Source of the DNA: a bacterium HR28
GTDB lineage: Bacteria; Chloroflexota; Chloroflexia; Thermomicrobiales; Thermomicrobiaceae
Length of the DNA stretch: 64,000 nucleotides
Direction: 5' to 3'
NCBI GenBank assembly: GCA_002898255.1
Contig: BEIE01000003.1
Coordinates: 62,001-126,000 of the forward strand
Positions 28,592-42,818 of this stretch are shown here, in pieces (position 1 is the first letter of the stretch; each line of letters opens with the position of its first letter). The notes beneath the pieces are model-generated. The model saw nothing but the letters and a program-made list of their open reading frames with translations. It was not told the origin of the DNA and ran no database searches. Made by a program: the position numbers and the translations under genes.

Positions 28592-28633
28592 TCGCAATAG
28601 CACTTCGTGATGTGTTGCATAGGGGGAATCTAT

Positions 28634-29533
28634 ATGGACGTGAGTTTACGGCAGCTGCAGGTGTTCCGAGCTGTGGCGCGCCACCGCAGCTTCTCGCGTG
28701 CTGCTGAGGAGCTCGTGATCAGCCAACCGGCTGTCTCGGCCCAGATCAAGGCGCTGGAACAGATCCTGAGTGTCCCGCTCTTCCAGCGTACCGGGCGAGG
28801 GGTCGAGTTAACCGAAGCGGGACGCCAACTCCTCCCGTACGCCGAGCGGATGCTCGATCTTTTGGACGAAGCGTTGAGTGCGGTACGCGAGCTGCGTTGC
28901 GCCCAGCGTGGTCAAGTACGGGTGGCTGCCAGTACAACAGCGGGCATCTACGTCGTCCCCAAGGCGCTCGGTGCCTTTCACCGTGCCTATCCTGGTGTGG
29001 AACTCTCGCTTGACGTGCTCAATCGCTTTGCCGTTCACCAACGGCTGCTCGCCGGGGACGCCGATCTCGCTATTATGGGACTGATCGAGGATCCACAAGA
29101 CCTGGAAATCGCTCAGTTCCTGCCGAACGAACTTGTTGTCATTGCCTCGCCTCGCCATCCACTGGCGCGCCGTCATCAAATTCCGCTCGAGGAGATTGCC
29201 CGCGAGCCGTTCCTCGTGCGGGAGATCGGCTCCGGAACGCGAGCCGATACCGAACGCATCTTTGCTGAAGCGGGTTTCCCGATTCGCGTGGCGATGGAGC
29301 TCCGGAGCAACGGTGCCATTAAGCAAGCTGTCGCTGCGGATCTTGGCGTAGCCGTTATGCCACGTGATGCGATTGGGCTCGAACTCGAGACTGGACGCCT
29401 CGTCATTCTTGATGTTCAGGGGTTTCCAGTGCGCCGCTGGTGGTCACTCGTGCGACGCGCCGGACGCCCGGTCTCGGCTGCGGCGGATGCTCTGTGGCAC
29501 TTCCTCCTACAGTACCGTTTGCAGGTGCACTGA
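28634..29533 (+). CDS. LysR-family transcriptional regulator, divergent from isocitrate lyase
   Basis: 299 residues from ATG 28634, with AGGGGGAA upstream. The N-terminal winged helix is canonical (SLRQLQVFRAVARHRSFSRAAEELVISQPAVSAQIKALEQ). The effector domain follows from about residue 90 (VRVAASTTAGIYVVPKALGAFHRAYPGVELSLD). It resembles the CbbR/CysL group. LysR proteins usually regulate the divergently transcribed neighbour, here aceA-aceB, so glyoxylate shunt control is plausible. The effector is unknown. Confidence 0.9.
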   Translation: MDVSLRQLQVFRAVARHRSFSRAAEELVISQPAVSAQIKALEQILSVPLFQRTGRGVELTEAGRQLLPYAERMLDLLDEALSAVRELRCAQRGQVRVAASTTAGIYVVPKALGAFHRAYPGVELSLDVLNRFAVHQRLLAGDADLAIMGLIEDPQDLEIAQFLPNELVVIASPRHPLARRHQIPLEEIAREPFLVREIGSGTRADTERIFAEAGFPIRVAMELRSNGAIKQAVAADLGVAVMPRDAIGLELETGRLVILDVQGFPVRRWWSLVRRAGRPVSAAADALWHFLLQYRLQVH

Positions 29534-30376: not shown

Positions 30377-30480
30377 TCTTGCCTCCAGGCACGATCCTAT
30401 CACACAGGTGACATGGCAGCAGAGTGCCTGATGGTTTACGCTTCGGCCAGGAATAGTGCGAGACGGGAAGGGGGAACCCG

Positions 30481-31176
30481 ATGCCAATTCTCTCGCCAGC
30501 AGACCAGGAATACCTGCGCCAGGTGTTCGCCGAACGCCTGCGGGATCCTGTAACAATCGTCCTTTTCACGCAGCGTGTTACCCAGATTCGTATTCCAGGG
30601 TATGAATGCGCAACCTGCCGTGAGACGAACCAACTTCTCGAAGAAGTGGCTGCGCTCTCCGACAAGATTACGTTGGAGATGCACGACCTCCTGCAAGATG
30701 CCGAGTTGGCTCAGCAGGCTGGTGTCGAGGAGATCCCGGCGATCATTTTGAAGGGCCACAATAAGGGGACGGTGCGATTCATCGGCGTCCCCGCTGGCTA
30801 TGAGTTCGCAACGCTGATCGAGGATATTATCGAGGTTTCGCGTGGTACCACCGAACTCAGTCCCTTGAGCCGTGAGACGCTTGCCAAGCTTGCCCAACCG
30901 GTTCATATCAAGGTCTTTGTCACCCCCACCTGACCATACTGTCCAAGTGTCGCCAGGTTGGCGCACATGATGGCAATTGAAAGTGACAAGGTCACTGCCG
31001 ACGTCGTCGAAGTGAGCGAGTTCCCGCATATTGCACAGCGCTATCGGATCTTCGCAGTGCCCAAGGTCGTCATCAATGAGTCGCTAGAGTTCGAGGGAGC
31101 TCGACCGGAAGCCGCCTTTGTTGCGATGGTTGAGTCGGTGGCAGGTCGACAGGACGAGGAGACACCGCAAGGCTGA
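30481..31176 (+). CDS. Two-domain thioredoxin-fold oxidoreductase (PDO/glutaredoxin-like), probable selenoprotein with in-frame TGA (Sec)
   Basis: 231 residues if TGA at 30931-30933 is read as selenocysteine. Start ATG 30481 follows AAGGGGGAA. Two thioredoxin folds are visible, as in protein disulfide oxidoreductase. The first has the active site C43-A-T-C46 and a cis-Pro loop EEIPAI. The second has VHIKVFVTPT, then TGA, then PYCPSVARLAHMMAIE, and a cis-Pro loop FAVPKVVIN. Known PDOs read FVTPTCPYCP here, so the TGA replaces exactly the first active-site cysteine, giving U151-P-Y-C154. Downstream codons keep frame and homology to the stop at 31174-31176. A SECIS-like hairpin follows the TGA, and selB is at 40923-42818. 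Taken as ordinary stops, the gene would be two fragments (30481-30933 and 30958-31176). A nonsense mutation or sequencing error is the alternative but would not explain the hairpin or Cys alignment. Confidence 0.87.
30947..30966 (+). promoter_or_regulatory. SECIS-like hairpin for selenocysteine insertion
   Basis: Thirteen bases after the TGA the RNA can fold as GUG - bulged U - CGCCA - GGU loop - UGGCG - CAC: a 3-bp lower stem (30947-30949 with 30964-30966), bulged U at 30950, a 5-bp upper stem (30951-30955 with 30959-30963) and loop GGU (30956-30958). This mirrors the E. coli fdhF element, which has a bulged U and a loop containing GGUC bound by SelB. The loop begins 22 bases past the UGA, inside the usual bacterial range. 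All of it is also coding sequence. Confidence 0.83.
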
Positions 31177-31187
31177 CAGACGCTCTG

Positions 31188-32663
31188 ATGCGACAGTCTC
31201 AATGGGACGCGGTCGTCGTCGGCTCTGGTCCGAACGGACTGGCGGCGGCGATTGCGCTTGCGCGCAACCAGCGGCGCGTGCTCGTCCTTGAGGGGCAGGA
31301 ACGGATCGGAGGAGGACTGCGAACAGATCCCAGCATCGTGCCCGGCTGCCGACACGATCACTGTGCGACGGTGGTGCCACTCGCAGCGGCCTCGCCATTC
31401 TTCCGTGCGATCGGTCTTCCAGAACGCTTAGTCTGGGTTCGTTCTCCTGCGGCGCTTGCTCATCCGTTCGATGACGGAAGCGCGGTCCTGCTCTGGCAAG
31501 ATCTGGAGCGCACCGCGGACGAGCTCGGGGAGGATCGAGGAAGGTATCGCGCACTTTTTCAACCCTTACTCGAGCGTGGCGATGCGCTGCTCGCGACGCT
31601 GCTTTCTCCTGCTCCCGGAGTAATACGTTTTCCAGAATTTCCGGTACCTTGGAGCGCACTCCTGCACTTCGCTCGGGAGGGCACGCGCTCGGCAATCCAT
31701 TTGTGCCAGCAGTTTCGAACCGAACAGGCACGGGCATTGCTTGCCGGCCTCGCTGCGCACAGCACGCTGCCGCTCGAACGTGTGCCCTCAGCCGCCTTTG
31801 CCCTGGTGCTCGCGCTGTGCGCGCATCTGGTCGGTTGGCCATTGCTGCGAGGCGGCACAGCGCAACTTGCCGCTCGTTTGATCGACGAACTCGCTGCCTG
31901 GGGTGGAAGACTTCAGAGCGGGTATCCAGTACATCGACTTACGGAGATCCCCCCGGCTCGCGCAGTGCTACTCGACCTGGTTCCGAAAAATGCGCTTGCG
32001 CTCGTCGGTCAGCGCTGGCCCCGCTGGTATCGCCAGCAGCTGGCGCGTTTCCGGCATGGCCCTGGTGTCTTCAAGATCGACTGGCTGCTCCGAGACGAGA
32101 TTCCCTGGCGGGCCACAGCGTGCGCTCTTGCCGCGACCGTTCATCTTGGTGGGACAGCGGAGGAAATCGCTGCGGCAGAACGAGCGGTAGTGAATGGCCG
32201 AATGCCGGAGCGACCGTTCGTGATTCTCGTTCAGCCAAGCCAATTTGACCAGAGCCGCACGTTGGCCGGGGTGGCTGTTGCCTGGGGATACTGTCACGTG
32301 CCGAACGGCTGGCAGGGAGACGCGACGGACGTGATCGAGCGCCAGGTGGAACGGTTCGCTCCCGGGTTCCGCTCGCGGATTCTCGCTCGTCGGGCATGGG
32401 GCCCGCACGATTTGGAGATGAGGAATCCGAACCTTGTAGGTGGTGATCTTGGGGCCGGTTGGCCGACGCTCCGTCAGTTGTTTGCGCGTCCCTCCTGGTG
32501 GCCGTGGCCACCATATCGGACTCCCGACCCGGCGCTGTTTTTCTGTAGCGCGTCGACGCCACCCGGTGGTGGAGTCCATGGTCTGTGCGGGTACTGGGCC
32601 GCGCGGTGGGTGGGTCGTTGGCTCCAGCGCCTGGATCGAGTGGATCGGCTGAAATCGACTTGA
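31188..32663 (+). CDS. FAD-dependent oxidoreductase, phytoene desaturase-like
   Basis: 491 residues from ATG 31188, 11 bases after the selenoprotein stop, so probably co-transcribed. The N-terminus has a dinucleotide-binding fold: VVVGSGPNGLAAAIALARNQRRVLVLEGQERIGGGLRT, i.e. GxGxxG and the GG-motif of the CrtI/PYROXD2 group. The C-terminal part (GGGVHGLCGYWAA) matches the closing FAD motif of the same group. Members include carotenoid desaturases and uncharacterised dehydrogenases; no other carotenoid gene is adjacent, so the substrate is open. Confidence 0.82.
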   Translation: MRQSQWDAVVVGSGPNGLAAAIALARNQRRVLVLEGQERIGGGLRTDPSIVPGCRHDHCATVVPLAAASPFFRAIGLPERLVWVRSPAALAHPFDDGSAVLLWQDLERTADELGEDRGRYRALFQPLLERGDALLATLLSPAPGVIRFPEFPVPWSALLHFAREGTRSAIHLCQQFRTEQARALLAGLAAHSTLPLERVPSAAFALVLALCAHLVGWPLLRGGTAQLAARLIDELAAWGGRLQSGYPVHRLTEIPPARAVLLDLVPKNALALVGQRWPRWYRQQLARFRHGPGVFKIDWLLRDEIPWRATACALAATVHLGGTAEEIAAAERAVVNGRMPERPFVILVQPSQFDQSRTLAGVAVAWGYCHVPNGWQGDATDVIERQVERFAPGFRSRILARRAWGPHDLEMRNPNLVGGDLGAGWPTLRQLFARPSWWPWPPYRTPDPALFFCSASTPPGGGVHGLCGYWAARWVGRWLQRLDRVDRLKST

Positions 32664-33030: not shown

Positions 33031-34185
33031 GTGAGCGACGCGTACGCCTGCGATGTCGATCAGCAGTGGATGCGGCGAGCAATCGCCTGGGCCTGGCGTG
33101 CACAAGGACGTGTTGCCCCGAACCCGGCGGTCGGGGCGGTCCTGGTTCGCGACGGTGTTGTAGTCGGCGAAGGTTGCACGCAGCCGCCCGGCGGGCCGCA
33201 TGCAGAGATTGTCGCCATTCGTCAAGCGGGCGAGCGGGCGCGTGGAGCAACCCTTTACGTCACACTGGAACCCTGCGCCCACTACGGGCGGACTCCACCT
33301 TGTGTCGATGCGATCCTGCAAGCGGGCATTGCACGTGTGGTTGTAGCGGTTATTGATCCCTATCCAGAAGTTGCTGGGCGGGGTATAGCACGGCTCCGCG
33401 AGGCCGGTATCGTGGTCACCCTGGGGGTGGAAGCGCAGGCAGCGGCCGAGGTCAATGCTGGATATTTCAAGCGATTGCGGTATGGTTTACCGGACATCAC
33501 CTTGAAGTACGCAATGTCGCTCGATGGGCATATTGCGACGCGCAGCGGTCATTCGCGCTGGATCACCGGTCCTGAAGCACGCCGATACGCACACCAGCTG
33601 CGGGATCGCCACGACGCGATTCTGGTCGGAGTGGGAACGGTTCTTGCAGACGATCCGGAATTGACAACACGTCTCGATCCGGAGGATGCCGGCGACGGTG
33701 GTCCGCACCATCCGCTACGCGTTGTGCTCGATACGCACGCGCGGACGCCGCCGACAGCTCGCTTACTTGCTCCCGATCTCCCTGGTCGTACCCTGATCGT
33801 CACAACGGAAGCAGCCCCACCGGAACGAGTTGGAGCGCTGTGGCGCGCGGGGGCGGAGCTTGTCTTCGTTCCACAGCGCTGTGGCCGCGTTGATCTCCCG
33901 GCTGCACTGCGCGTTCTTGCCGAGCGCGGGATTAATCGAGTGCTTGTCGAGGGGGGTAGTCGCGTGCTCGGCGCGTTTTTCGACGAGGAGCTCGCCGATA
34001 GTGTGGTGGCCTTTATCGCGCCAGTGCTTATTGGCGGGGCGAACGCACCGGTCCCGCTGGCTGGGCAGGGCGTCGAAACGATGGAACAGGCTGTCCGGTT
34101 ACGAGAAATGCAAGTGCGTCAGGTTGGTACGGACGTCGTCATTGAAGGAAGACTCCGACCGCTCGAGATTCCGGAGGGCGTGTGA
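33031..34185 (+). CDS. ribD: Bifunctional riboflavin deaminase/reductase
   Basis: 384 residues from GTG 33031. The N-terminal deaminase has the zinc site H57-A-E, and EPCAHYGRTPPC with C82 and C91; it removes the amino group from the pyrimidine intermediate made by GTP cyclohydrolase II. The C-terminal reductase (from about 150; LKYAMSLDGHIATRSGHSRWITG, LVEGGSRVLGAF) reduces the ribosyl side chain with NADPH. Length and order are typical. Its stop overlaps the ribE start (TGATG). It is controlled by the FMN riboswitch just upstream. Confidence 0.96.
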   Translation: MSDAYACDVDQQWMRRAIAWAWRAQGRVAPNPAVGAVLVRDGVVVGEGCTQPPGGPHAEIVAIRQAGERARGATLYVTLEPCAHYGRTPPCVDAILQAGIARVVVAVIDPYPEVAGRGIARLREAGIVVTLGVEAQAAAEVNAGYFKRLRYGLPDITLKYAMSLDGHIATRSGHSRWITGPEARRYAHQLRDRHDAILVGVGTVLADDPELTTRLDPEDAGDGGPHHPLRVVLDTHARTPPTARLLAPDLPGRTLIVTTEAAPPERVGALWRAGAELVFVPQRCGRVDLPAALRVLAERGINRVLVEGGSRVLGAFFDEELADSVVAFIAPVLIGGANAPVPLAGQGVETMEQAVRLREMQVRQVGTDVVIEGRLRPLEIPEGV

Positions 34186-34829
34186 TGTTCACCGGTATTG
34201 TCGAGGAAATTGGTGAGGTTGTGGCGGTGCAGTCGCTCCCGGGGGGAGGGGCTCGGCTTCGCGTCCGCTGTCGGACCGTCCTGGAGGGTACTCGTGTCGG
34301 CGACAGCATCGCAGTCGAGGGTGTTTGCCTGACCGTCACGGAACTTGCCGGGGACAGCTTCCTGGTGGAGCTCCAGCCGGTGACGCTCCGCCGCTCCGCG
34401 CTCGGGTCGCTTCGGGTCGGGGATCCTGTGAATCTCGAGCGAGCCGTTCCGGTCGGTGGGCGATTCGGTGGGCACTATGTGCAAGGTCACGTTGATGCGG
34501 TTGGACGAGTGGTGCGGATGGAGCATGATGGTCCGGCGCTCGTCGTACGGATCGCTGCACCGGCGGACGTGATGCGCTACGTGGTGGAGCGAGGCTTTAT
34601 CGCGGTCGATGGGGCAAGCCTGACGGTGCAGCGACGGACAGATCATGAGTTTGAGGTCTCGCTTGTCGCCTATACCCAAGAACACATCACGTTGCCGCGG
34701 AAGCGACCGGGTGCTCCGGTGAATCTGGAGGTCGATATCGTGGCCAAATATGTCGAACAGTTCCTGCGCCTCGGCGCCGCCGACGGCCTGTCGCTGGAAG
34801 CGCTCCGCCGAGCTGGATTCGTCTCGTGA
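34185..34829 (+). CDS. ribE: Riboflavin synthase alpha chain
   Basis: 214 residues from ATG 34185, overlapping the ribD stop and preceded by GGAGGG. The N-terminus MFTGIVEEIGEV is diagnostic. The two homologous lumazine-binding barrels are visible, from residue 1 and about 98 (GHYVQGHVDAVGRV). The enzyme converts two 6,7-dimethyl-8-ribityllumazine molecules to riboflavin. The motif SIAVEGVCLTVT (about 45-56) recurs in the second half as FIAVDGASLTVQ, reflecting the internal duplication. Its end runs into the ribBA leader. Confidence 0.96.
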   Translation: MFTGIVEEIGEVVAVQSLPGGGARLRVRCRTVLEGTRVGDSIAVEGVCLTVTELAGDSFLVELQPVTLRRSALGSLRVGDPVNLERAVPVGGRFGGHYVQGHVDAVGRVVRMEHDGPALVVRIAAPADVMRYVVERGFIAVDGASLTVQRRTDHEFEVSLVAYTQEHITLPRKRPGAPVNLEVDIVAKYVEQFLRLGAADGLSLEALRRAGFVS

Positions 34830-34846
34830 AGAGAGGGAGGCGCACG

Positions 34847-36103
34847 GTGACGCGATTCGAGCGTGTGGAGCGCGCGATCGAGGCGTTCCGCTCTGGGCGG
34901 TTTGTCATCATCGTCGACGATGCTGAACGGGAAAACGAAGGCGATCTCGCGATCGCGGCGCAGTTCTGTACGCCAGAAGCGGTGAATTTCATGGCGCGCG
35001 AAGCCCGCGGCCTGATCTGCGTGCCCATGGCTGCCGAATGGGCGGACCGTTTGGGACTACCATTGATGGTGCCGCCCACAGTGAATGGCTCGCGTTTCGG
35101 GACTGCTTTTACGGTGTCCGTCGAGGCCCGTGAAGGAGTAACGACCGGGATCTCGGCGTTTGATCGGGCCACAACGATCCGAAAGTTGGCTGATCCGTCC
35201 GCGACAGCTGCCGATTTCGTCATGCCCGGCCATGTGTTCCCACTAAGGGCGCGGCCGGGTGGTGTCCTAGAACGCGACGGGCAGACAGAAGCATCAGTCG
35301 ATCTGGCACGCCTGGCAGGGTTGTACCCCGTCGCAGTTGTGTGCGAAATCATGAGTGCAGACGGCACGATGGCGCGTTTACCCGAGCTGGAGCGGTTTTC
35401 CGCTCTGCACGATATTCCTCTGGTCCACGTAGCTGATCTCATTGCTTACCGCCTGGTGCACGAACGGGTCGCCCGGTGTGTCGCTGAGACGACACTGCCC
35501 ACGCGATTCGGAATGTTTCGCCTGCGGGCGTACCAGCGTTTGGGTGGTGAAGAGATCGATCTCGCGCTCGTTTTGGGTGAAGTGAATAGTGAGGAGCCGA
35601 TCCTCGTTCGTCTGCACTCGGAGTGCTTGACAGGGGACGTGTTTGGATCACAGCGGTGCGATTGTGGTCCGCAGCTTGAGACGGCGATGAAGCGGATCGC
35701 CATGGAAGGGCGTGGGGTGATCGTCTACCTGCGCCAGGAAGGGCGAGGGATTGGACTGCTCAATAAACTCCGGGCGTATCACCTACAAGATCAGGGGTTG
35801 GATACAGTTGAAGCGAATCTTCAGCTTGGTTTCCCGGCCGACCTCAGGAATTACCGGGAAGCGGCGATTATCCTGCGCGATCTTGGTATCCAACGTGTCC
35901 GTCTGATGACCAACAATCCGCGCAAGGTCACTGCACTCGAAGAACTCGGATTTACAGTGGTGGAACGGGTCCCCATCGAGCTACCGCCGACCGAGCACAA
36001 TCACCGTTACCTGCGTACGAAGCGTGACAAGCTTGGTCATCTGGTCCTTCTGCAAGAACTCGCCAGCATCGGGGTCGAAACAGAGCGAGGAGGCACAGCA
36101 TGA
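34847..36103 (+). CDS. ribBA: Bifunctional 3,4-dihydroxy-2-butanone-4-phosphate synthase / GTP cyclohydrolase II
   Basis: 418 residues from GTG 34847, chosen because GGAGG lies six bases upstream; the frame is open to 34826 but without such a site. Residues 1-200 are RibB ([47 protein letters not shown]). Residues 205-418 are RibA, with zinc ligands in [15 protein letters not shown] and the catalytic region [21 protein letters not shown]. The fusion is common in Gram-positives and Chloroflexota. It feeds both branches of riboflavin synthesis. The stop overlaps the ribH start. Confidence 0.95.
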
Positions 36104-36615
36104 TGGAATCTGATCGGCGAGGTGTTCGGACGATCGAGGGGACGTTGAATGGGCGAGGCCGGCGGTTTGCGATTGTTGTAAGCCGATTCAATGAGTTCAT
36201 TTCGTCCCAGCTCTTGCGTGGTGCACTCGATGCGCTGGTACGGCATGAAGTCGATCCACGAGCGATTGACATTGTCTGGGTGCCTGGGGCGTTCGAGCTT
36301 CCCGTGACGGCCAAGCGCCTGGCACAAATGAACCGGTACCATGCAGTGATCTGTCTCGGCGCAGTCATCCGTGGAGCAACGCCACACTTTGACTACGTCG
36401 CGGGCGAGGTCGCCAAAGGGATCGCGCAGGTTGCGCTCCAAACAGGTGTCCCAGTGATTTTTGGTGTGCTGACAACGGACACCATCGAACAGGCAGTGGA
36501 GCGAGCAGGGACGAAGCTTGGCAACAAGGGTGCCGAAGCTGCTGTGACGGCGATCGAGATGGCGAGCCTCTTCGCCGAGCTGGAACGCCTCACTGTACCC
36601 TCGCTGGAAGCTTGA
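36100..36615 (+). CDS. ribH: 6,7-dimethyl-8-ribityllumazine synthase
   Basis: 171 residues from ATG 36100, with GAGGAGG six bases upstream and a four-base overlap with ribBA. The signatures [45 protein letters not shown] and [20 protein letters not shown] are complete, including the catalytic His in PHFDYV. The enzyme joins the RibB and RibD products and is often a 60-mer. It is the last gene of the rib operon. No terminator is evident directly after its stop. Confidence 0.96.
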
Positions 36616-40139: not shown

Positions 40140-40945
40140 GACACTGCGCTCACTGACGCGTGGAGTTCCCAAAAGCGTTCAGCGAGGCGGCCCTGACCAA
40201 CAGTAAGCGCGTAGGTTCGGAGGGCTTCTTCGACATCGCCCAGCTCGCGGAAGATGAAAGCGACCTGACTCTCGTAGCACGAGATAGCCTCGAGTCGACG
40301 GCGAAACAACTCCTCACTGAGAAAAACGAGCCACGGAGGAGCTGACGCGTATTGCTGAGTTAGCTCAGAGCAGTGCTCTTGACCGATTGGGCTAGCCGCA
40401 TATGGCAGATCTTCATAAGCCCAGACAGGGTAGCCGCGAGCGGCCACTCCCAACCCGACCATGCGAGCGATTTGGTGGTCGACGTGACCACCAATGGCTA
40501 GGGGCAGAAAGAGTGTCACCTGTCCGCCCTGTTGTTCGATCACGTCTTCGACCATTGCACGGAGTGTCTCGACCAGGGAAAGATCGTCCGGATGGATAGG
40601 GCCGAAGAGTTCGGAGTCGGAAGTGTAGCGTGCGTCGCGGTAGATTGCGTCAGGAATATCAAACCAGAGAGCTCGGGCACCGAGCACCTTTGCGGCGGCG
40701 AGTTCCTCTTTGCGGTGCAGCTGGACGACAGCAGCATCGTCCAGTCCTCGCCAACGATGCTGTTGTCGTGCAAAGGCACTGAGCGGCTCACGTGGTTCTC
40801 CACCGAAGAGCGTGACCACGAGCGGTTGGAGACCAAGTTCAGCGAACAGGCAGACTGTTCCGCCGCAAGAGAGTGCGACGTCATCGAAGTGGGGCGCAAG
40901 AAAAATCGGGTTCTGCACCTTTTCAGGCGTAACGGACCCGTGCAT
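40097..40945 (-). CDS. PIG-L/LmbE family deacetylase, paralogue 2, downstream of selB
   Basis: 282 residues from ATG 40945; earlier codons in the frame lie inside selB. The metal site motif APHFDDVALSCGGT (about 16-29) and GGHVDHQ (about 148-154) fit the PIG-L family, which removes N-acetyl groups from GlcNAc-type substrates. The start lies inside the 3' end of selB (23-base overlap), so the genes are translationally coupled. A role linked to selenium is not implied; the pairing may only be an operon neighbour. The other PIG-L gene in the window is at 2658-3392. Confidence 0.83.
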   Translation of the reverse strand: MHGSVTPEKVQNPIFLAPHFDDVALSCGGTVCLFAELGLQPLVVTLFGGEPREPLSAFARQQHRWRGLDDAAVVQLHRKEELAAAKVLGARALWFDIPDAIYRDARYTSDSELFGPIHPDDLSLVETLRAMVEDVIEQQGGQVTLFLPLAIGGHVDHQIARMVGLGVAARGYPVWAYEDLPYAASPIGQEHCSELTQQYASAPPWLVFLSEELFRRRLEAISCYESQVAFIFRELGDVEEALRTYALTVGQGRLAERFWELHASVSAVSYLESDAVENEGME

Positions 40946-42818
40946 CGCCAACCCGCCGCGTGACGCGACGCTGATCAAGGTACTCGAGGAGCGCTTGGGC
41001 GTATTTGCGACTGGTACCGAGTTCGTCTCGGACCTGGGCCAAAGTAACGCTCCCATGCGCATCAATGAGTGCGAGAACGCGCTGTTGGATGGCTTCCCAG
41101 GCTTCCGGTGCAAAAACGACGTCGTCGGTGATACGAACAACCCGGCCCAGGTCAGCGAGCGCCTGCACAAGCTCACTTTCCAGTCCATATTCCGCTGGTG
41201 CTGGTGGAGTGAATGGTGCGCGTCGGAGGGCTGCCTCATAGGCGCGGGCACGGCTCTCCTGCTCTGCATCAAGCCGGATGCGGTGCTCCGGAAGTCGCAA
41301 GATCTCGTCCTCTTCTACGAGTTGGCCAGCGTTGGCTAGGCGGAGAACAACGTAATCAAACGCACGTTGGGTAAGGCCGAGGCGACTGCGCGCCATTTCG
41401 CGGGGTAGACCGCGCCGCAGGGGGAAGCGTGAGTGGTAATCCTGGACCAACTCCAGGAGTCGGGCACAGAGTCGCTCTGCTGTCTCGCGCCGGACCAGGG
41501 GTGTCGTCGGGCTCAGTGGACCGTCACCGCCGTCAAGAACAAGCACGTGCCCTGCCGCAATGACTCGTTGGATCGCCTCTGTGGCCGTCGATTCGTCGAG
41601 ACTTGCGCGCTGCAAAAGTTCGCGCCACTCGAGAACTTGGTCGCCTTCAAGCACCTGGAGGAGAATCGTTTCTGGATCACCTGAGGCGAGTGCCTCCAGC
41701 GCCCGGATGACCTCTGGTCGGAAACGACGGTGTCGACGGGGTGCCGTGTCCACAATGATTCCACCGCCGAGCGTCGAACTGGGGGAGGGACGTCGAATAA
41801 TGAACCGGTCACCGCGGGTTGCGACGATCGGTTCCTGAAGACGTAACTGCACCCAGCCACTCTGCCCAGGTTCGAGACGTTCGGCATCGAGCAATGTCAC
41901 GCGGGCGAGCGTCTCGCTCGTTCCCACAAAGAAGTCGACCTCGTCGTTCTGCTCCAGTGGAGCGGGAGCGTCCGGTACCATGCGAAGCCGCGCGTCAAGC
42001 AACGTCGTCGGCTTCAGCCATCCCGGAACGGTGAGCACGTCACCGCGCTCAATTTCATCGACCTCAACGCCGCTCAGATTGACAGCTGTCCGAGAGCCTG
42101 GCAATGCCCGCTCAACCCGCGTCCGATGGCTTTGTAGCCCGCGCACCCTGGCACGCAGGCCACGAGGGAGAATTTCAACCTCCTGCCCTACTTCGAGTTC
42201 ACCGTCCCGCAGAGTACCAGTGACGACTGTTCCGAAGCCGGACATGGTGAAGACGCGATCAATCGCGAGGCGAGGTCGTCCACGACCGGGATGTGGGGGC
42301 ACGTGGTCGAGTACGCGATCGATTGCGTCGACGAGCTCTGTGAGTCCCTGGCCAGTAGTTGCTGCAACGGGGATGATCCGTGCTCCTTCCAGCGTCGTCC
42401 CCCGCAGGAGTTCCTCGACCTCAGCTTGGACGAGCTCGAGCCAGTCTTCATCGACGAGATCTCGCTTCGTGAGCGCGACGACACCGTGCCGGATCTCCAA
42501 GAGGTCAATAATCGCCAAGTGTTCCCGAGTCTGTGGCATTGGCCCCTCGTCGGCTGCCACGACCAATAACGCGGCGTCGAAGCCGCCCACCCCGGCAAGC
42601 ATGTTCTTGATAAACCGCTCGTGACCGGGCACGTCAACAATGCTCAACCGCCGACCGCTCGGAAGTGTCATCCAGGCGAAGCCGAGGTCGATGGTCATCT
42701 CTCGCTCTTTTTCTTCGCGGAGACGATCCGGATCGATCCCGGTCAGCGCCTTGACCAGTGTCGATTTCCCGTGGTCAACGTGTCCAGCGGTTCCGATAAC
42801 GAATGTCTGTCGCGTCAT
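40923..42818 (-). CDS. selB: Selenocysteine-specific translation elongation factor
   Basis: 631 residues from ATG 42818. The N-terminal GTPase is EF-Tu-like: G1 AGHVDHGKST (11-20), G3 DVPGHERF (62-69) and G4 TKRD. The switch sequence EREMTIDLGFAWM is diagnostic of SelB rather than EF-Tu. Beta-barrel domains II/III follow, and the C-terminal 250 residues form winged helices (LRRGLPREMARSRLGL, SVTLAQVRDELGTSRKYAQALLEYLDQ) that bind the SECIS hairpin. It delivers Sec-tRNA to in-frame UGA. Neither selA, selD nor a tRNA-Sec gene is recognised in the window. It confirms that this organism can decode UGA as selenocysteine, as required by the oxidoreductase at 30481-31176. Confidence 0.95.
   Translation of the reverse strand: MTRQTFVIGTAGHVDHGKSTLVKALTGIDPDRLREEKEREMTIDLGFAWMTLPSGRRLSIVDVPGHERFIKNMLAGVGGFDAALLVVAADEGPMPQTREHLAIIDLLEIRHGVVALTKRDLVDEDWLELVQAEVEELLRGTTLEGARIIPVAATTGQGLTELVDAIDRVLDHVPPHPGRGRPRLAIDRVFTMSGFGTVVTGTLRDGELEVGQEVEILPRGLRARVRGLQSHRTRVERALPGSRTAVNLSGVEVDEIERGDVLTVPGWLKPTTLLDARLRMVPDAPAPLEQNDEVDFFVGTSETLARVTLLDAERLEPGQSGWVQLRLQEPIVATRGDRFIIRRPSPSSTLGGGIIVDTAPRRHRRFRPEVIRALEALASGDPETILLQVLEGDQVLEWRELLQRASLDESTATEAIQRVIAAGHVLVLDGGDGPLSPTTPLVRRETAERLCARLLELVQDYHSRFPLRRGLPREMARSRLGLTQRAFDYVVLRLANAGQLVEEDEILRLPEHRIRLDAEQESRARAYEAALRRAPFTPPAPAEYGLESELVQALADLGRVVRITDDVVFAPEAWEAIQQRVLALIDAHGSVTLAQVRDELGTSRKYAQALLEYLDQRRVTRRVGDARVRYA

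Follow-up and report, generated by a model that had tools for sequence, protein, structure and literature searches.

An in-frame UGA that appears to break a gene in two is in all probability (about 0.96) a selenocysteine (Sec) codon at the catalytic site of a two-domain protein disulfide oxidoreductase (PDO), decoded by way of tRNA-Sec, SelB and a stem-loop. The gene, termed here Sec-PDO, lies in a window of 64,000 nucleotides (the whole stretch of DNA that was analyzed, with positions counted from its first letter). The window is part of contig C3 in a genome of 3.1 Mb, to which Thermomicrobium stands closest among named relatives. As far as sequence comparison can speak to decoding, the Sec reading of this TGA, which had been proposed from the sequence alone, is strongly supported by the presence of the machinery, by the Sec/Cys conservation of the affected column and by a bSECIS stem-loop, such that the apparent broken gene is corrected to that of a full, predicted selenoenzyme (Table 1).

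Table 1. Positions in the window of the Sec-PDO gene, its parts and the SelB gene
Feature	Position	Strand	Details
Sec-PDO gene (predicted selenocysteine-containing protein disulfide oxidoreductase)	30481..31176	+	231 aa, ATG start, TGA stop 31174-31176
Shine-Dalgarno-like AAGGGGG	30468..30474	+	6 nt 5' of the Sec-PDO ATG; direct sequence reading
N-terminal redox site CATC, residues 43-46	30607..30618	+	CxxC of the PDO N-unit
In-frame UGA, residue 151, probably read as selenocysteine	30931..30933	+	position 1 of UPYC
C-terminal redox site UPYC, residues 151-154	30931..30942	+	
bSECIS stem-loop GUG-U-CGCCA-GGU-UGGCG-CAC	30947..30966	+	nucleotides 17-36 from the UGA
bSECIS core stem	30951-30955/30959-30963	+	5 bp
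bSECIS apical loop GGU	30956-30958	+	3 nt, 22 nt after the UGA
SelB, selenocysteine-specific elongation factor	40923..42818	-	631 aa; ~10 kb from the Sec-PDO gene

A two-domain oxidoreductase frame with one internal UGA

Translation of 30481-31173 and the terminal TGA yielded a single internal TGA, at codon 151, with VHIKVFVTPT on its 5' side and PYCPSVARLAHMMAIE on its 3' side, and no further in-frame stop between it and the end of the gene. Homology extends across this codon: the NCBIfam model TIGR02187 gave one match spanning the TGA (residues 7-218, E = 2e-79, 265.7 bits against a cut-off of 185), and phmmer aligned the Pyrococcus PDO (1j08/1a8l) to residues 2-216 (E = 4e-42), placing the TGA opposite the first Cys of FVTPTCPYCP. 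Foldseek matched the AlphaFold2 model (mean pLDDT 90.8) to the PDO structures 2ayt and 1a8l at a TM of about 0.85; model, Foldseek and sequence together give the product two thioredoxin-fold domains with a CxxC-type site in each (CATC and UPYC), of which the N-unit site is changed or missing in distant homologues (alignment of 98 loci). The sequence-only reading of this window had put forward a frame of 231 residues with one TGA, homology on both sides of it, and a PDO-type enzyme with one CATC and one UPYC site, in which the TGA takes the place of the first redox cysteine: the translation reproduced that frame exactly, the alignments bore out the homology and the position of the TGA, and the enzyme type with its two sites is strongly supported. 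Thiol/selenol-disulfide oxidoreductase is the function best predicted for the protein.

Under the standard code, the locus reads as an ORF of 150 codons with a broken-up stretch behind it. One rival reading takes the UGA for a real stop that yields a functional one-domain product of 150 residues, the 3' part being translated on its own or forming a conditional extension. A short form is in fact expected under selenium starvation, and internal TTG, ATG and GTG codons downstream of the TGA speak for separate translation. Nevertheless, we regard real termination as very unlikely: no ORF of at least 80 aa that begins at a start codon of its own spans the 3' part of the gene, and re-initiation was rejected; a separate 3' fragment would, judging from the model, miss both the catalytic residue and the initial strand of the C-terminal domain; and the conserved hairpin described below would have no role.

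A gene for an FAD-dependent (phytoene desaturase-like) protein (31188-32663, + strand) begins 12 nt past the Sec-PDO stop, and this gene order, a putative functional link, is held in Thermomicrobium and some relatives and lost in others. Two genes upstream of Sec-PDO is a LysR regulator (28607-29533, + strand), which scored 223 bits against the 'selenium metabolism-associated LysR' model (cut-off 250) with a nearly equal match to CbbR, so that it is assigned to neither. An FMN riboswitch (RF00050, 32790-32937, + strand, 85.6 bits) stands upstream of a riboflavin operon (33031-36615, + strand) composed of ribD, lumazine-binding riboflavin synthase, ribBA and lumazine synthase.

Selenocysteine machinery and a stem-loop behind the UGA

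The genome holds a complete Sec machinery. Its tRNA-Sec scored 73 bits and was called SeC with anticodon TCA by ARAGORN, SelA and SelD are present (SelD with an in-frame TGA of its own), and SelB matched TIGR00475 with 365 bits (cut-off 242) and has the SelB winged-helix domains. Several relatives also carry the SelB and PDO genes on one contig, some 8-20 kb apart. Two FdhA-like (formate dehydrogenase-like) genes (L152, G000 C2:344601; L153, C1:441682) have TGA in the canonical NQARI-U-H, and each TGA is followed by the hairpin CCC-GGUCU-GGG, whose loop begins with GGU, as does the PDO loop. The in-frame TGAs of SelD and the two FdhA-like genes thus point to Sec decoding in at least three other genes, on the same kind of evidence.

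Behind the PDO UGA, the 33-nt stem-loop region has an MFE of -11.6 kcal/mol, and the stem-loop falls within all four of the bounds that PMC13188914 gives for bacterial SECIS elements (a loop of 3-9 nt with G in the first two positions, a stem of 4-16 bp, a spacing of 16-37 nt and an MFE of at most -7.5). The codons over it, GCC-AGG-YTG-GCG-CAC, are nearly frozen in homologues that carry the TGA (Sec forms): codons 158, 159, 161 and 162 are each written in one way only (GCC, AGG, GCG and CAC) in nine Sec orthologues, as against 2.4% of invariant-residue codons equally fixed elsewhere in the PDO gene, and AGG is rare (13 of the 511 Arg codons counted over ten genes of the window). All 8 stem pairs were kept in 16 of 20000 synonymous shuffles. 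The outermost core pair (21-33) covaries: in 57 unique Sec sequences it occurs as CG, UG, GC, GU and AU, and it is paired in 41 of them compared to 25 in shuffles; it is this pair that mainly carries the covariation in the register of Table 1. Pair 24-30 is paired in 47 compared to 37 in shuffles, an excess that comes mostly from lineages using another hairpin register. Some lineages (f19, f28 and f31) have their hairpin in such a register, with CGUGCU- or CGUGA-type loops. Among the other Chloroflexota (L091-L135), the loops of such other-register hairpins in the Sec-PDO genes of some families are CGUGCU, CGUGA and GUGC.

When compared with dinucleotide shuffles, the folding of the whole 45-nt zone is weak (z = -0.55), and that of the 33-nt core reaches z = -1.95, with 3 of 200 shuffles equally stable. 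Because the 45-nt comparison is uninformative, we used synonymous-codon shuffles and contrasts between Sec forms and forms with a cysteine codon (Cys forms). Measured against synonymous shuffles, folding is better in the Sec than in the Cys forms (p = 1.3e-5). The Cys orthologue of Thermomicrobium sp. CFH 73360 retains the residues Arg-Leu-Ala-His over this stretch, encoded by CGT CTC GCG CAC, which disrupt the stem.

Readthrough of the UGA as some other residue, whether by near-cognate insertion of Trp or Cys or under a reassigned code, would agree with the Cys that relatives have as the equivalent residue. It is extremely improbable in a genome that has a dedicated tRNA-Sec, SelA, SelB and SelD and other genes with predicted Sec at canonical positions, and the PDO hairpin matches recruitment of the SelB type; UGA also terminates the Sec-PDO gene itself (31174).

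Conservation of the UGA column

In an alignment of 98 homologous loci, drawn from Chloroflexota and from a small number of other phyla (with a few genomes represented by two loci each), column 151 is TGA in 63, TGC in 26 and TGT in 9, for a total of 35 Cys codons, and TAA or TAG in none. Similarly, 400 evenly sampled Chloroflexota genomes gave 120 family matches, of which 55 (about 46%, counted by eye from a table) have a single TGA and none has TAA or TAG. Values of dN/dS after the TGA range from 0.01 to 0.10 in the seven pairs of the window with a relative and in those other pairs for which a value is defined, and dN/dS is low before the TGA too; as judged from the aligned genes, purifying selection is acting on both parts of Sec-PDO, before and after the TGA. 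TAG in two relatives (L043 and L046) was considered as evidence of other stop types and rejected, as neither lies at the Sec column: L043 has no stop in the 98-locus alignment, the single one of L046 falls at residue 223, and in the 400-genome sample the family domain of that genome contains none.

The restriction of column 151 to TGA and Cys codons, with no TAA or TAG, effectively rules out both a pseudogene and a sequencing error. A nonsense mutation followed by a decaying 3' part would account for the ORF being interrupted under the standard code, yet such decay is exceedingly unlikely: the TGA is conserved over many genera, which led us to reject this explanation, the downstream frame is under the low dN/dS given above and free of further stops, and the genome has its complete Sec machinery. 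The chance that the true codon is TGC or TGT, as the Cys in this column of PDOs with solved structures might suggest, is practically nil, and sequencing or assembly error was rejected because the same TGA occurs in independent assemblies, both isolate and MAG, of several genera.

Predicted mechanism

The continuous conserved frame, the Sec/Cys column, the hairpin under synonymous constraint, the complete Sec machinery and the PDO fold were all computed directly, and we infer the actual insertion of Sec, the catalysis, its redox direction and the electron donor. In the proposed mechanism, tRNA-Sec and SelB would decode UGA 30931, with recruitment by the stem-loop at 30947-30966, and the resulting Sec would replace the nucleophilic cysteine of the C-terminal CPYC in a PDO of double thioredoxin fold. 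Sec151, as the selenolate, would react with disulfides or with other oxidized groups by attacking them, Cys154 would resolve Sec151 through a selenenylsulfide, and the N-terminal CATC would act as a second redox site or an electron relay. The roles of Sec151 as nucleophile, Cys154 as resolving residue and CATC as second site follow by homology with PDOs, in which they are established. A search of the genome for a canonical thioredoxin reductase as electron donor gave no match that exceeds the cut-off of the family (best match 143 bits, cut-off 343), and electrons may reach the PDO from an unusual flavoprotein. The best thioredoxin-reductase-like gene of the genome is at G000 C1:809301-810212.

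Exchange between selenocysteine and cysteine

A tree of 91 proteins required 7 Sec/Cys changes, compared to 28 in shuffles, indicating strong clustering of the two forms. The Sec cases of f19 are nested among Cys forms in this tree, which is suggestive of an independent gain. CFH 73360 (L020/L029) has TGC where the window has TGA, and its flanking DUF72, LysR and RibD proteins share 96-98% identity with those of the window (90% for the FAD-dependent protein). In the comparison with window positions 30400-31100, its DNA is only 64-80% identical along the PDO gene, and nowhere else, with flanks mostly at 86-99%; a second species (L018) has normal identity over the whole region, and in the tree the CFH 73360 Cys form falls outside the other four Thermomicrobium PDOs. 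The confinement of the drop to the PDO gene, the normal identity in L018 and the position in the tree together point to an apparent replacement in place, in this one genome, of the whole gene, a Sec allele giving way to a Cys allele. Rapid divergence following the loss of Sec is the less likely alternative, given that the PDO is saturated at synonymous sites as well.

For the Chloroflexota PDOs as a whole, we lean slightly towards a history of repeated Sec/Cys exchange in which the bSECIS was gained more than once at one and the same site, in different registers, and in which CFH 73360 switched by taking up a diverged Cys allele in place and not by point mutation. No link was found between loss of Sec in the PDO and loss of the Sec machinery: tRNA-Sec is also present in most Cys-form genomes searched, and CFH 73360 has kept both tRNA-Sec and SelB. 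Natural Sec/Cys pairs of this kind, one of them within a single genus and with syntenic flanks, provide a test of what Sec adds to a thermophile PDO.

Comparison with known systems

The sequence-only reading, which knew of no PDO-type selenoprotein, was mistaken on this point. Both PMC9312934 and PMC13188914 list the TIGR02187 family (UxxC, with ABB15282.1 as example) among the predicted selenoprotein families, and PMC13188914 gives credit for it to Kryukov and Gladyshev 2004; the NCBIfam model itself is named PDO_seleno_TRX. The family was listed in 2006 for Carboxydothermus and Symbiobacterium, two members only (PMC1794560), and has been reported in Asgard archaea (PMC11227280). In the literature searched, we found no mention of a copy at the level of the genus Thermomicrobium, and papers on selenocysteine or selenoproteins in Thermomicrobium and Sphaerobacter, judged by title and abstract, include none on the Sec-PDO gene. 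A selenoprotein family with two members in the 2006 list is thus widespread in Chloroflexota, at about 46% of the family matches sampled.

The Cys-type PDOs of Pyrococcus (1a8l, 1j08), Aquifex (2ayt, 2ywm) and Aeropyrum (2hls) have the same double thioredoxin fold as Sec-PDO, which is 30-36% identical to the five best-matching PDO entries at a TM of about 0.85. The FVTPTCPYCP context of the Pyrococcus enzymes is common to Sec-PDO apart from the Sec; Cys-type PDOs have Cys first in the C-terminal site, whereas Sec-PDO has predicted Sec there and CATC as its N-site. More distant is the N-terminal domain of AhpF (5h29, 6il7, 1zyn, 1hyu), a related double thioredoxin fold with 18-24% identity to Sec-PDO: AhpF carries a fused flavoprotein, Sec-PDO (231 aa) does not, and its score of 68.6 bits against the AhpF model TIGR03140 (cut-off 502.9) places it outside full-length AhpF. 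With the known Sec-type TIGR02187 proteins, by contrast, Sec-PDO shares the HMM family, the C-terminal UxxC and predicted Sec at the position of its first Cys, the sole difference being that those come from Carboxydothermus, Symbiobacterium and Asgard archaea and these from Thermomicrobium and other Chloroflexota. The Thermomicrobium Sec-PDO is therefore no new kind of system but belongs to a selenoprotein family that has been predicted since 2004.
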